DNA from: a virus
Direction: 5' to 3' (one strand)
Virus record (IMG/VR): IMGVR_UViG_3300033145_001105
Span: 1 to 22,083 of that record
Length of the DNA stretch: 22,083 nucleotides
Shown: positions 1,785-6,145 of the stretch, one piece after another
How positions within the stretch are numbered: position 1 is the stretch's first letter
Layout of the letters: each line of letters starts with the position of its first letter
The notes under the pieces: generated by a model
What the model was told of the DNA's origin: nothing
Database searches by the model: none
The model's input: only the letters and a program-made list of their open reading frames with translations
Position numbers and translations under genes: made by a program

Positions 1785-2270
1785 GTGAAGATCGAGCAAT
1801 GGGATATCGACAAGGTCAAGCCATACGAGAAGAACCCACGCCGCAACGATAAGGCCGTCGAGGCCGTGGCGAACTCCATTCGAGAGTTCGGCTTCCGCCA
1901 GCCCATCGTGGTCGATGAGCACGGCGTCATTGTCGTCGGGCACACGCGGCACAAGGCGGCTCTGAAGCTGGGCCTCAAGACCGTACCCGTCCACGTCGCC
2001 GCGGACCTCACGCCCCAGCAGGCGCGGGCGTACCGCCTGGCCGACAACCGCTCGGCTGCTGATTCCGAGTGGGACGTTGATCTTCTGCCCATCGAACTGG
2101 GCGAGCTTCGCGACGATGGCTTCGACCTGAAGCTGGTGGGCTTTTCCGACAAGGAGCTTGCCGAGTACCTCCGCGAGTTCGACACCGACCTCGACGGCGG
2201 TGCCGAAGCCGACGAAGCCGTCGAAACCGTCCGCTGCCCCAAGTGCGGCCACGAGTTTCCCCTGGAGTGA
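1785..2270 (+). CDS. ParB/Srx-fold (ParB-like nuclease domain) protein with C-terminal zinc knuckle
   Basis: Residues 1-100 carry the ParB N-terminal pattern: KVKPYEKNPRRND, then NSIREFGFRQPIVVDE, then GVIVVGHTRHKAALKLG (the G-H-T-R-H box, about residues 52-56), which binds and hydrolyses a nucleotide in this superfamily. The following LTPQQARAYRLADNRS...WDVDLLPIELGEL and GFSDKELAEY stretch is the arrangement known from phage ParB-methyltransferase fusions, but here no methylase follows. Instead the protein ends in CPKCGHEF, a lone zinc knuckle. The start is taken as GTG 1785 because AAGGGAG lies 7 bases upstream; an ATG at 1764 is in frame but has no such site. There is no ParA nearby, so plasmid-type partition is unlikely; DNA nicking, nucleotide kinase-like or regulatory roles are possible. 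Fold confident, function open. Confidence 0.85.
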   Translation: MKIEQWDIDKVKPYEKNPRRNDKAVEAVANSIREFGFRQPIVVDEHGVIVVGHTRHKAALKLGLKTVPVHVAADLTPQQARAYRLADNRSAADSEWDVDLLPIELGELRDDGFDLKLVGFSDKELAEYLREFDTDLDGGAEADEAVETVRCPKCGHEFPLE

Positions 2271-2275
2271 ATGCC

Positions 2276-3697
2276 ATGAGCGTACAAGTTGCCGTCTACG
2301 TTCAAAGCAAGTACGCCAAGCCCGCCTACACGGTGGAGAGCTACAACGTCCGCGCCTGGCCGGGGTTAGAACTGGTCTGTCACGCCTTGCGGCAAGCAGG
2401 GATCGAGGTGGACTACTGCTCGTCCGCCACGGCCGGCCGGTACAAGATCGTGCTGGTGTCGATCACGTCGGGTTGCGACTGGTATCCGTTCGTCGCCGAG
2501 CGGTTACGCTGGCCGAAGTCGGCCCGGCCGACCGTCATTGCCGGCGGCGCGGGCCTGCTGAACGTCCGGCCGCTGCTGCGATGGTGCGATGTCTTCTGCC
2601 TGGGCCGGGCGGAAAGCCACGTCGTGCCGCTGGTCCGCGCAGCGCTGGCCGGCGAGAAGTACGAGCACCCGTCGGTGATCTACGGGGCCGATTTCGACAT
2701 GAACCGGACATACTGCATCGACGCCGGCGAGAAGCTCTACCCGCATCCGGTGCCCCTGGCCAACGGCAAGATCTGGCGGGAAACCGCCTACGGCTGCCAG
2801 CGCAAGTGCCTGTTCTGCGCCTACACCTGGCACCGCCGGCACGTCGGCGGGATGCAGAACGAGGCCGGCGCGGGCGACGTACTTTGGGGCGGCTCGGCCG
2901 AGAAGACCATCTTCGAGCTTGACCTTGCCCGGCCGGAGACGTGGGGCCTGCCGAAGCTGCGGATCGTCGGGCTGGACGGCTTCTCCGAGCGGCTTCGGCG
3001 AATGGTCAACAAGCCCATCACGCGCGACATGCTCCGCGGCTTTTTCCGCGGCATGGCGGCGGCGAAGGTCAAGCCGAACCACATGAAGGTCTACAACATC
3101 GTCGGCTATCCGACGGAGACCGAGGCCGACTGGTTCGAGTTCCTCGAAGACCTTGCCGCGGCGGACGAAGGCTGGACCAAGATCGATCCGCAATGGGGTA
3201 TTGAGGTCCATTCGACGCCGTTTCGCCCCATGCCAGCCACGCCCGCCGCCTGCTGGCCGATGAGCCCGGTCAATTACCGCGGCCGAATCGCCAAGATGCT
3301 CGCCCAGGGCAAGCATCGGGAATACAAGAGCATCTTCTACCGCGGCAACCGCTTCTGGGCGGCCGAGTCGCGCGGGACCGAGAGTCTGCCGACGGTCATT
3401 CTCGACGCGCTGGTCCTTCGCGGCGTCGAGGACGACTCCGAGACAATCGCCCGGCTGGCCAGCTCAAAGAAGTTCCGCAACGCGAGCATGGCCCACAAGA
3501 CCGCCATTCTGGAGCGGTACGTCGATATCGCCCGGCTCTTTGGCGGCTACACGTGGGAGACGCTCCCGACGCGGTACCTGGCCTCGTATACACCGAACCA
3601 GAAGCTCCAGAACATCGACGCCGTGGCACGCAAGCGAGCCGGCGCGCCCTGGCCAGAGGAACAAGGCGCCACCGTAACCGCACTTGACCGTACTTGA
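2276..3697 (+). CDS. Radical SAM enzyme with B12-binding-like N-terminal domain
   Basis: The protein has 473 residues. Cysteines 174, 178 and 181 in YGCQRKCLFCAY form the CX3CX2C motif that holds the 4Fe-4S cluster for radical SAM chemistry. Residues 1-165 look like the Rossmann-type B12-binding domain that precedes many radical SAM domains (GLELVCHALRQAGIEVDY, IVLVSIT, TVIAGGAG, FCLGRAES), but I do not see the DxHxxG cobalamin motif. Downstream VYNIVGYPTETEADWFEF is the usual strand and helix late in the barrel. The substrate cannot be read from the sequence. The start is ATG 2276, with GGAG 8 bases upstream; the ParB-like gene ends 5 bases earlier, so the two are probably co-translated. Its site between a ParB-fold gene and the terminase suggests a phage-specific modification, of DNA or of a structural protein. 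Confidence 0.85.
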   Translation: MSVQVAVYVQSKYAKPAYTVESYNVRAWPGLELVCHALRQAGIEVDYCSSATAGRYKIVLVSITSGCDWYPFVAERLRWPKSARPTVIAGGAGLLNVRPLLRWCDVFCLGRAESHVVPLVRAALAGEKYEHPSVIYGADFDMNRTYCIDAGEKLYPHPVPLANGKIWRETAYGCQRKCLFCAYTWHRRHVGGMQNEAGAGDVLWGGSAEKTIFELDLARPETWGLPKLRIVGLDGFSERLRRMVNKPITRDMLRGFFRGMAAAKVKPNHMKVYNIVGYPTETEADWFEFLEDLAAADEGWTKIDPQWGIEVHSTPFRPMPATPAACWPMSPVNYRGRIAKMLAQGKHREYKSIFYRGNRFWAAESRGTESLPTVILDALVLRGVEDDSETIARLASSKKFRNASMAHKTAILERYVDIARLFGGYTWETLPTRYLASYTPNQKLQNIDAVARKRAGAPWPEEQGATVTALDRT

Positions 3698-3723: not shown

Positions 3724-3912
3724 ATGACTGAAGAACTGGACATCCGCTCCCTGTCGGTGACGGCCGCGGCGAAGCTGCTGAAGGTCTCGCCCAAGACCGT
3801 CCGCGCGCACATCCGCCGCGGCCTGCCGCTGGTGGGCAAGCGGATCGACCTGATCGTCTACGGGGCATGGCTGAACCAGCAGGAACAGAACCGGCGGACC
3901 GATGGCGCTTGA
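3724..3912 (+). CDS. Small helix-turn-helix protein, candidate small terminase subunit
   Basis: The protein has 62 residues. Residues 10-32 (SVTAAAKLLKVSPKTVRAHIRRG) fit a MerR/excisionase-type helix-turn-helix, followed by a short strand region and a polar tail. It ends 11 bases inside the start of the large terminase gene, the usual place of the small subunit, which recognises the packaging site and hands DNA to the motor. It is much shorter than most small terminases, so it may supply only the DNA-binding part. No clear ribosome-binding site precedes ATG 3724, but a stop 16 bases upstream (TGA 3706-3708) leaves no other start. It could instead be a regulator that binds the phased repeats immediately upstream. 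Confidence 0.65.
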   Translation: MTEELDIRSLSVTAAAKLLKVSPKTVRAHIRRGLPLVGKRIDLIVYGAWLNQQEQNRRTDGA

Positions 3913-6145
3913 CCCGAAAAAGCTGAGCCGCAACGAACTCGTCCAGCTTCTCAACTCGACGCCGCTGGGCGAGTGCCTTACGCGCTCGCGGCTGGATCGG
4001 CAGATGAATCGTGCCGGCCGGCGCTGGCACGACGGGCGGCGCATCCGCCTGCTGGATTACCTGCGCTGGCTGATCCGCGAGGTGGACCGGCCGGCCAAGC
4101 CGAAGATCGACGGCCGCGCCGCGGACCTCGCCCGCAAGAACACCGAGACCTGGCGAAGCCAGAACATCGCGCCGCTGCCGGAGATCGCCGACATGGCGAG
4201 GCGGCAGCGTGCCCGGGCCGACTTCCGCTTCTTCTGCGAGACCTACTTTGCCAGTGCGCTCTATCGCGGCTGGTCGGAAGACCACCTCCGCGTCATCGAG
4301 AAGATCGAGCGGGCCGTCAAGGAAGGCGGCCTGTTCGCATTCGCCATGCCGCGCGGTTCCGGCAAGACCACGCTAGCGCGCCTGTCGGCGTTGTGGGCGG
4401 TCCTGTCCGGCCACCGGCCGTTCGTGTGCCTCATCGGCGGCTCGCAGGAACGCGCGATCGAACTGCTCGCACCGATCCGCAAAGCCATCCTGGAAAACGC
4501 GCTGCTGCTGGCCGACTTCCCCAAGGCCATCTACCCGCTGAGCCGGCTCCAGAACAACGCCCGCCGGCAGATCGGCCAGCACATCGACGGCAAGCCCACC
4601 TACTGCACGTGGGCGGCGGACAAGCTCGTGTTCCCAACGGTCGAAGGCCCGCACAACGAGGCGTCCGGGGCGATCATCACCGTGACCAGCCTCGACGCCA
4701 ACATGCGCGGCCAGCAACACACGACCATGGACGGCCGGACGCTTCGGCCGTCGCTGGTGTTGCTGGACGATCCGCAAACGCGCCAGTCCGCCCGGTCCCC
4801 GACGCAGACGCGATACCGGCTCCAACTTCTCACCGGCGACGTACTCTGCATGGCGGGGCCGGGCGAATCCATCGCCGCGGTGCTGACCTGCACGAAGATT
4901 TACGCCGGCGACCTGGCCGACCAGGTGCTCGACTGCCAGAAGAATCCCGAGTGGCAAGGCGAGTGCACGAAGATGGTCTACGCCTTCCCCTCGAACGAGA
5001 AGCTCTGGGACGAGTACGCCCGCATCCGCGCCGAAGGCCTGCGGGCCGGCAAGGGCCTCAAGCCGGCGACGGAGTTCTACCAGAAGCACCGCCAGGCGAT
5101 GGACGCCGGCGCGGTCGTTGCCTGGCCCGAGCGTTACGACACCAGGACGGAGGTCTCGGCGGTCCAGCACGCCATGAACCTCAAGCTCCGCGACGAAGAG
5201 GCGTTCGCCGCGGAGTATCAGAACGAACCGGTGACCGAGCAGTCGCAGGAAGGGCGCCTCACCGCTGAGCAGGTGGCCGAGAAAACCACTGGCCGGCCGC
5301 GGGGCCAGGTGCCCCTGGCGGCAACGCGGATCACGGCTTTCATCGACGTGCACGACAAGCTGCTGTTCTGGTGCGTCTGCGCGTGGGAAGAGGACTTCAC
5401 CGGCTACGTCATCGACTACGGCACGTTCCCGGACCAGAAGCGGCTGTACTTCACGCTTCGCGACGCGACGCACACGCTGGGCCGGACGTTCCGGGGCGCG
5501 GGCAAGGAAGGCGCGGTCCAAGCCGGCCTGGAGAAGCTCGCCTCGGACCTGCTCGCCCGACAGTGGCAGCGAACCGACGGCACGGCGCTTCAGATCGAAC
5601 GGCTGCTGATCGACTCGGGTTATCTACCGGCGGTGTGCAACGCCGTAGCCGTCAAGCTGGCCCCGGCCGTGCTGCTGTCGAAGGGCATGGGCTTGCGGGC
5701 GGGCAACAAGCCGATGGCAACGTACACCCGTCGGCCGGGCGAGCGCCACGGGCACAACTGGTACATCCCGAACGTGTCGCGCTCCAGCGAGTTCCGACAC
5801 GTCGCCTTCGACGCCAACTTCTGGAAGACCTTCGTCCACGCGCGGCTGGCGACCGCCGCCGGCGACCGCGGGGCCATGACGCTGTTCGGCAAGAAGCCCG
5901 AACACCACCGGCTCTTTGCCGAGCACGTCGCCGACGCCGAGAGCTACGTCGTCACCGAAGGCCGCGGGCGGACCGTCCATGAGTGGCGGGCCAAGCCGTC
6001 CCGGCCCGACAATCACTGGTTCGACTGCCTTGTGGGCTGCGCCGTCGCCGCCTCGATGGTCGGCGTGAAAGTTCCCGGCGAAGGCGCGACCACCCGGCGA
6101 CGGAAGCGGTATACACAGGAAGACCTGAGAAGGCGCGTGCCATGA
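3902..6145 (+). CDS. Phage terminase large subunit (ATPase and nuclease)
   Basis: This 747-residue protein drives DNA into the prohead and cuts it. The Walker A motif is MPRGSGKTT (residues 149-157) and the Walker B motif is LVLLDD (285-290). The C-terminal RNase H-like nuclease begins with FIDVHDK (Asp482) and includes LLIDSGY and the terminal DNHWFDC box (703-709), which is characteristic of GpA-type large terminases. Residues 1-110 form an extra basic N-terminal region not needed for the motor and possibly used to contact DNA or the small subunit. The protein is longer than a typical terminase because of this extension and of the segment between ATPase and nuclease. The gene overlaps the upstream HTH gene by 11 bases and the downstream zinc-ribbon gene by ATGA. 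Confidence 0.93.
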   Translation: MALDPKKLSRNELVQLLNSTPLGECLTRSRLDRQMNRAGRRWHDGRRIRLLDYLRWLIREVDRPAKPKIDGRAADLARKNTETWRSQNIAPLPEIADMARRQRARADFRFFCETYFASALYRGWSEDHLRVIEKIERAVKEGGLFAFAMPRGSGKTTLARLSALWAVLSGHRPFVCLIGGSQERAIELLAPIRKAILENALLLADFPKAIYPLSRLQNNARRQIGQHIDGKPTYCTWAADKLVFPTVEGPHNEASGAIITVTSLDANMRGQQHTTMDGRTLRPSLVLLDDPQTRQSARSPTQTRYRLQLLTGDVLCMAGPGESIAAVLTCTKIYAGDLADQVLDCQKNPEWQGECTKMVYAFPSNEKLWDEYARIRAEGLRAGKGLKPATEFYQKHRQAMDAGAVVAWPERYDTRTEVSAVQHAMNLKLRDEEAFAAEYQNEPVTEQSQEGRLTAEQVAEKTTGRPRGQVPLAATRITAFIDVHDKLLFWCVCAWEEDFTGYVIDYGTFPDQKRLYFTLRDATHTLGRTFRGAGKEGAVQAGLEKLASDLLARQWQRTDGTALQIERLLIDSGYLPAVCNAVAVKLAPAVLLSKGMGLRAGNKPMATYTRRPGERHGHNWYIPNVSRSSEFRHVAFDANFWKTFVHARLATAAGDRGAMTLFGKKPEHHRLFAEHVADAESYVVTEGRGRTVHEWRAKPSRPDNHWFDCLVGCAVAASMVGVKVPGEGATTRRRKRYTQEDLRRRVP

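Follow-up and report, generated by a model that had tools for sequence, protein, structure and literature searches.

We propose that two adjacent genes of an uncultured phage, one for a ParB-fold protein and one for a radical SAM (rSAM) protein, form a DNA-base-modification module in which the ParB does the loading and the rSAM enzyme the modifying, a reading to which we give a probability of about 0.58. The rSAM protein is most likely a DNA-base-modifying enzyme that is brought to DNA by a CTP-clamp-like ParB. The argument for this substrate is one of guilt by association, drawn from the enzymes that accompany ParB proteins at the same genomic position in other phages.

In the mechanism that we envisage, the ParB would be the DNA-loading partner, a short nucleotide-gated (probably CTP-gated) clamp that lacks the other parts of a partition protein, and the rSAM enzyme would be the modifying partner, docking on the ParB through the C-terminal CPKCG tail of the latter. 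With a [4Fe-4S]/SAM radical and probably a bound cobalamin, the enzyme would alter a carbon of a DNA base, with C-methylation or a related alkylation as the likeliest reaction. So modified, the genome would be protected from host restriction and would then be packaged by the neighboring terminase.

The gene pair and its surroundings

The window, by which we mean the whole stretch of DNA analyzed, is a complete IMG/VR record of 22,083 bases and is probably a phage fragment. It runs from the end of a primase/polymerase-like gene through the ParB/rSAM pair, a small HTH protein, and the large terminase to the portal, a fused protease/major head protein, the major tail protein, and the tape measure. 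The features that matter for the argument are as follows.

1785..2270, plus strand: ParB/Srx-fold protein, 161 amino acids (GTG start, Pfam and PHROG matches, structure model)
2235..2258, plus strand: codons of the CPKCGHEF tail, a proposed enzyme-docking or metal element
2276..3697, plus strand: radical SAM protein, 473 amino acids, candidate DNA-base-modifying enzyme
2795..2818, plus strand: codons of the [4Fe-4S] motif C174-X3-C178-X2-C181 (from a 25-member alignment)
3724..3912, plus strand: small HTH protein, possibly the terminase small subunit or a packaging regulator (HTH_17 E 1.5e-5, below cut-off; phrog_57 E 5.5e-5)
3902..6145, plus strand: large terminase, GpA nuclease type (PF20454 E 5.8e-21; phrog_38 E 1.3e-29)

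The ParB gene begins with a GTG at 1785, has an AAGGGAG ribosome site just 5' of it, and stops at 2268-2270 (the mechanical open reading frame begins at 1764). The rSAM gene extends from an ATG at 2276 to a stop at 3695-3697 (mechanical frame from a GTG at 2243), with 5 nt between the ParB stop and the rSAM start. Neither gene is a chance reading frame, as both are under purifying selection, with dN/dS values of 0.08 to 0.18 for ParB and 0.12 to 0.27 for rSAM (five pairs with close relatives in each case). The coordinates, adjacency, and motifs that the first-pass annotation gave for the two genes were all confirmed, as was its placement of packaging genes beside them: the HTH protein and the GpA-type large terminase lie downstream, followed by portal and head genes. 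The large terminase is the landmark of the slot that holds ParB-linked modification genes.

Two other frames lie between the primase-like gene and the pair. One is an open frame of 199 amino acids on the plus strand (589-1188) with no match in Pfam or PHROG. The other, on the minus strand (1216-1707), encodes a putative lipoprotein of 163 amino acids with a carboxypeptidase-regulatory-like domain (PF13620 E 9.8e-9) and faces the operon just before the ParB gene.

Distribution and linkage

With the rSAM protein and then alignments as queries, the widest scan yielded 55 viral loci. A scan of bacterial genomes with the rSAM yielded 7 loci, from six planctomycete assemblies (three Planctomycetota, two Phycisphaerales, and one uncultured planctomycete, the last with no more than a short match) and one Bacteroidetes assembly. 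The family is rare in hosts, since 1 of 294 Planctomycetota genomes matched at E<=1e-30, that one being the genome used as centre. The carriers of the cassette are uncultured phages, some of them found in planctomycetes; by tblastn against 50,697 phage records, there was no match for the rSAM of the window or of locus L096, and there were two weak partial matches for that of L105.

Linkage was assessed with one locus per contig, which gave 63 loci, or 62 once L123 was dropped because it had no usable rSAM match; the denominator is the 52 loci with at least 450 bases before the rSAM gene (rSAMs 27 to 90% identical). The ParB gene lies directly upstream of the rSAM gene in 48 of these 52, ending close before it or slightly inside it, in counts that include near-copies (L092/L093, L098/L100, L111/L114, L146/L147/L148, and L152/L153). 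The four exceptions are L160, with ParB downstream; L012, with a broken rSAM frame; L162, with no ParB nearby; and L149, which is treated separately below. In 44 of 50 loci, the ParB stop is located between -30 and +5 nt relative to the first rSAM residue in the alignment. Because the contigs were all retrieved with the rSAM, the ParB was found independently of the query (L074 came up first through its ParB, and its contig was also retrieved through the rSAM).

The large terminases of pair loci (n=10) have PHROGs 15, 38, 9, 3717, 979, and 4758 as best matches and lie 3' of the pair in nine cases and 5' in one (L110). Since several PHROGs are found among these neighbors, several phage lineages carry the pair. 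ParBs linked to the rSAM do not form a single clade: a tree that leaves out six of the near-copies has 14 label changes, at least 4 of them forced by supported branches. We conclude that the linkage is real and old. Conserved linkage across related phages had been set beforehand by the first-pass annotation as a point on which its reading could fail, and 48 of 52 loci show it.

Unusual arrangements were seen at three loci. In L111 and L114 (5511-6548 in both), no stop codon follows CPKCGFEFY in the ParB frame, which continues across the rSAM gene in a different frame for about 180 codons, either through a lost stop or as a frameshift arrangement. In L109, the ParB-rSAM pair is followed immediately 3' by another ParB (2274-3566), one that is fused to an N6/N4 DNA methyltransferase.

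Predicted fold and cofactors of the rSAM protein

The rSAM protein is predicted to comprise a B12-type Rossmann domain, an rSAM barrel, and a helical C-terminal region, in that order. In an alignment of 25 members spanning 26 to 90% identity to the window protein, the cysteines of the CX3CX2C motif (C174, C178, and C181) are invariant in all 25, and the other invariant residues include D234, G235, S237, R239, R241, F316, and R317. The Radical_SAM Pfam model matches 24 of the 25 at E<=0.01; the window protein itself scores 27.5 to 27.6 bits, just below the cut-off of 29.5. The best structural match of the AlphaFold2 model (pLDDT 87.3, pTM 0.87) is MgmA (Z 17.4, rmsd 4.1, 315 residues), which Foldseek also puts first, and the next are CysS (Z 13.4), MiaB (12.7), and TsrM (12.5), then AprD4, RimO, and OxsB (11.7). 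Sequence identity to the solved B12-dependent rSAM methylases is 12 to 18% over the aligned part. All NCBIfam matches are far under their cut-offs (13.5 bits against a curated 360 for TIGR04014, the MgmA family), and phmmer against solved sequences gave no relevant match. Among viral structure models, the best match is an Fe-S oxidoreductase of Siphoviridae sp. ctdcr45, 23% identical.

In the model, residues 1 to 126 fold as a B12-binding Rossmann domain (Z 8.0 against the B12 domain of 4r3u), and DxHxxG is absent; the earlier description of an rSAM enzyme with CX3CX2C and a B12-like N-terminal half lacking DxHxxG is thus borne out. The B12-binding Pfam model matches 10 of 25 family members at E<=0.01 and the window protein weakly (12.1 bits against a cut-off of 32.1). 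The missing DxHxxG is no argument against B12, because the cobalamin bound by MgmA, the protein with the closest fold, has no lower axial ligand, as described in the accessible part of its report (PMC11796369). A low-confidence stretch of the model, residues 16 to 24, may lie near the B12 site.

The solved folds that best match the protein act on proteins, small molecules, or RNA, and the sole match that acts on DNA, spore photoproduct lyase, scores much lower (Z 6.5 against the rSAM model). An enzyme that modifies tRNA or rRNA like the MiaB-type methylthiotransferases, with the ParB as a bystander, would accord with the presence of MiaB and RimO among the structural matches (Z 12 to 13) and with a weak match to TIGR00089. 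We consider it quite improbable, however, as that match reaches 14.5 bits against a cut-off of 251, no cysteine besides the cluster three is invariant in the 25-member alignment and hence there is no second, N-terminal three-cysteine cluster of the MiaB/RimO type, and linkage in 48 of 52 loci is not what one would expect of a bystander ParB. The methylthiotransferase identity as such was rejected on the absence of the second cysteine cluster from that alignment.

Nearest relatives of the ParB-fold protein

The ParB/Srx fold claimed earlier for the upstream protein stands, with a ParB_N match above cut-off (E 4.3e-10, 39.9 bits against 26.3) and a fold match to CTP-binding ParBs. The protein has both the GHTRHKA box and the terminal CPKCGHEF; the box fits the nucleotide-binding GxxRxxA motif, and among the ParBs compared G52 and N88 are invariant and R55 nearly so. 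The model (pLDDT 89.1) consists of a CTP-clamp-like body (residues 1 to 139), a flexible linker, and the C-terminal CPKCGHEF tail. Over residues 1 to 139, it matches CTP-pathway ParB/Noc structures at Z 13 to 15, the best being a CTPgammaS-bound ParB (Z 14.9 over 134 residues); sulfiredoxin (Z 11.0) and free serine kinase (Z 8.7) are more distant. Because the model is nearer to CTP-binding partition ParBs than to sulfiredoxin or the serine kinase, it does not favour a kinase role. The accessible text on Rhodococcus phage Tonitrus lists a 5-hmU DNA kinase gene separately from a ParB-like gene (PMC11955845).

Similarity of the PF02195 and TIGR00180 type would also be expected of a partition or nuclease ParB from a plasmid-like prophage, standing beside an unrelated metabolic rSAM gene. 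That explanation is very unlikely: the protein scores 42 bits against a curated cut-off of 58.45 for the partition family TIGR00180 and is only about 160 amino acids long, its nearest families are phrog_620 (E 7.6e-56) and methyltransferase-fused ParBs (phrog_498 is also matched), and its position before the terminase genes is fixed.

The first-pass annotation had likened the pair to thymidine hypermodification in phages, and this analogy fell. The gene for phage M6 gp053, which we take to be the rSAM of thymidine hypermodification, likewise adjoins a terminase small subunit gene, as one might expect if the present pair were a step in such a multi-enzyme pathway. But hhalign of the 25-member rSAM profile with the single M6 sequence gives a probability of 1.7%, so low that no relation is detectable; thymidylate synthase (PF00303) was found in none of the 10 viral records with the pair, which may be fragments; and the ParB is nearest to CTP-binding partition ParBs. 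We therefore regard the pathway as highly unlikely, and it was rejected as a candidate on the PF00303 and hhalign results.

The C-terminal CxxCG tail

CxxCG is present in 50 of 50 ParBs upstream of rSAM, including ParBs whose bodies are only about 20 to 30% alike, and it sits 8 to 14 residues before the ParB end in 48 of the 50 (in L111 and L114, the ParB frames run into the rSAM gene). It occurs in none of the 45 methyltransferase-fused ParBs among the best 80 of 598 loci in an N-domain scan. In the pair L155/L156, the rSAMs are 72% identical and the ParB N-domains 26%, and the tails read TACPKCGFEYAI and TTCPKCGFEYAI. Across 42 loci, which are not independent lineages, ParB distance and rSAM distance correlate at 0.76 (0 of 2000 permutations); the partial correlation of tail and rSAM with the ParB body held constant is 0.56 (0 of 2000), and that of tail and ParB body with the rSAM held constant is 0.02 (621 of 2000). 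Judged from these sequence comparisons, the tail varies with the rSAM and not with the ParB body. The nearness of the tail to the rSAM start codon accounts for part of the tail-rSAM correlation; such physical closeness does not explain why the motif is invariant.

Similar tails are found on ParBs that are neighbors of Mom or C5 methyltransferase genes and do not have this rSAM family as partner (L206 and L216, and also L037, L043, L047, L065, L067, and L073, whose frequency is biased because they were retrieved partly through the tail pattern). These tails argue for a general docking or metal element. They also bear on the possibility that the rSAM enzyme modifies a protein, be it the CPKCG tail of its own ParB or some other protein of the virion or the packaging machinery. 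Short C-terminal peptides of partner proteins are targets of rSAM enzymes, and the ParB tail is short, C-terminal, and invariant and goes with the rSAM. MgmA, whose solved fold is closest, has a wide peptide cleft and methylates a protein glutamine, in the accessible account of that enzyme (PMC11796369). We nevertheless think a protein substrate rather unlikely, given that ParBs whose neighbors are Mom or C5 methyltransferases rather than this rSAM have similar tails and that the slot is otherwise a DNA-modification slot.

More generally, ParB C-terminal ends seem alike within a partner type and different between types, as judged by eye in small numbers and with partner types assigned partly by eye. 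Look-alike ends were seen in 4 of 5 Mom-linked ParBs (L188, L209, L239, and L241), in 3 of 4 glycosyltransferase-linked ones (L218, L227, and L238; L210 differs), in 2 of 2 TET-linked ones (L205 and L243), and in 4 of 4 ATPase-linked ones (L184, L186, L215, and L219), where genes for ABC/AAA-type ATPases of about 230 amino acids lie directly 3' of the phage ParB genes.

Occupants of the ParB slot

The reading that we prefer, a DNA-base-modifying rSAM enzyme with a ParB as loading partner, draws on the other occupants of the slot. By its PHROG matches (phrog_620 and phrog_498), the window ParB groups with ParBs that adjoin DNA-modifying enzymes or are fused to them. In sister phages with large terminases 44 to 65% identical to that of the window, a ParB-N6_N4_Mtase fusion is found in the same slot (L020, L022, and L027), and L018, a sister phage by its large terminase, has a ParB plus Mom there. 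Among hand-picked ParB partners and fusions, 19 of 24 belong to known base-modification families: seven Mom, four N6/N4 methyltransferase fusions, three C5 methyltransferases, three TET-associated glycosyltransferases, and two Tet_JBP. Of the remaining five, one protein had no meaningful match; the others were a PAPS reductase, an ABC/AAA ATPase, and weak matches to a PLP enzyme and an NTP transferase. The best 80 of 598 loci in the ParB N-domain scan, classed by sequence motif and home-made profiles rather than Pfam, comprise 45 fused methyltransferases, 5 Mom, 2 separate N6/N4-type motifs, 1 rSAM, 23 others, and 4 lost at contig ends. Because DNA-modifying enzymes otherwise fill this slot, we read the rSAM as a putative DNA-modifying enzyme as well.

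The first-pass annotation had suggested a minimal nucleobase-modification module. The slot occupants speak for nucleobase modification, but minimality does not hold, with ordinary methyltransferases elsewhere in some carriers: PF01555 is matched in 6 of 14 viral records carrying the rSAM (5 above cut-off) and PF00145 in 1 of 14. The pair therefore need not be the sole modifier. Searches of the 14 records for Tet_JBP and Mom gave no matches, and control genomes were equally silent, so these negatives carry no weight.

A search by title and abstract, incomplete and thus no basis for claiming absence from print, found no paper that links ParB and an rSAM enzyme in phage DNA modification. Within the literature searched, the rSAM is probably a partner type not seen before for a ParB-type DNA-modification adaptor.

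A copy linked to csf genes

One exception to the ParB linkage, a rSAM family member that is 39% identical, lies in a cassette of another kind.

L149:1168-7287, contig IMGVR_UViG_3300010369_000009: csf1/csf2/csf3 type IV-like genes, with the rSAM last in the cassette

The order is csf1, opposite-strand genes, a small protein, csf2, HTH, csf3, and rSAM, in a siphophage-like record of 47 kb with terminase- and tape-measure-like frames (both by eye) and an integrase. The matches to csf1, csf2, and csf3 have E values of 2.6e-10, 6.8e-12, and 2.4e-11 and scores of 40 to 45 bits, below the curated cut-offs of 130 to 140, and are distant relatives. Neither a ParB match nor a CRISPR-like repeat array was found in 13 kb of L149. 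A scan with the L149 rSAM for a second csf-linked copy returned only its own contig, and 72,556 plasmids gave no match to this protein. If functional, the L149 Csf complex may replace the ParB as the DNA-finding partner. Elsewhere in the record is a gene of the PAPS-reductase family.

Wider meaning and comparison with known systems

Since the short tail stayed with its enzyme when the ParB body was exchanged, an adaptor model can be tested with two small proteins. Proteins of the ParB type are commonly found next to phage DNA-modification enzymes; they occur with the DNA cytosine carboxymethyltransferase CmoX, are frequently fusion partners of DNA methyltransferases, and have a role there that the accessible part of the source states to be unknown (PMC12783734). 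Should DNA be the substrate, this would be a DNA-acting rSAM enzyme of the B12 type, and an unknown phage base would be indicated. The Csf-linked copy would suggest to what use some nuclease-free type IV CRISPR systems put their accessory enzymes. A tentative generalization, which we think possible but doubtful, is that cobalamin-dependent rSAM enzymes C-alkylate DNA bases and are aimed by exchangeable partners, namely, in most phages a CTP-gated ParB clamp gripped by its CPKCG tail and, in one phage, a type IV Csf complex. Phage ParBs would then be plug-in adaptors with C-terminal ends specific to each modification enzyme.

Four known systems invite comparison. Phage M6 resembles the window in that its rSAM gene adjoins a terminase small subunit gene and gp053 matches the Radical_SAM Pfam model (E 1.8e-4). 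It differs in having an annotated thymidylate synthase, whereas the 10 viral records with the pair have none, and gp053 has no detectable homology to the window rSAM. The type IV-B CRISPR-Cas systems with a CysH-like gene, whose CasCysH is discussed as a possible DNA modifier in the accessible text (PMC8175902), share with L149 the csf1-csf3 genes, one accessory redox-type enzyme, and the lack of a repeat array (within 13 kb in L149). In L149, by contrast, the accessory gene at the cassette end encodes an rSAM, and the comparison involves one locus only.

The B12-dependent rSAM methylases (MgmA, CysS, TsrM, and OxsB) are alike in having a Rossmann domain followed by an rSAM barrel with CX3CX2C and in not needing the lower-ligand histidine motif. 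Unlike them, the window rSAM belongs to a phage family linked to ParB, and its cobalamin and substrate are putative. The ParB-linked phage modification genes (methyltransferase fusions, Mom, TET/JBP plus glycosyltransferase, and CmoX) likewise have, in sister phages, a ParB_N body just before the terminase, with an enzyme partner that is separate or fused and with partner families that interchange between related phages. What sets the present pair apart from these is that the partner is an rSAM and that the ParB ends in a CxxCG tail.
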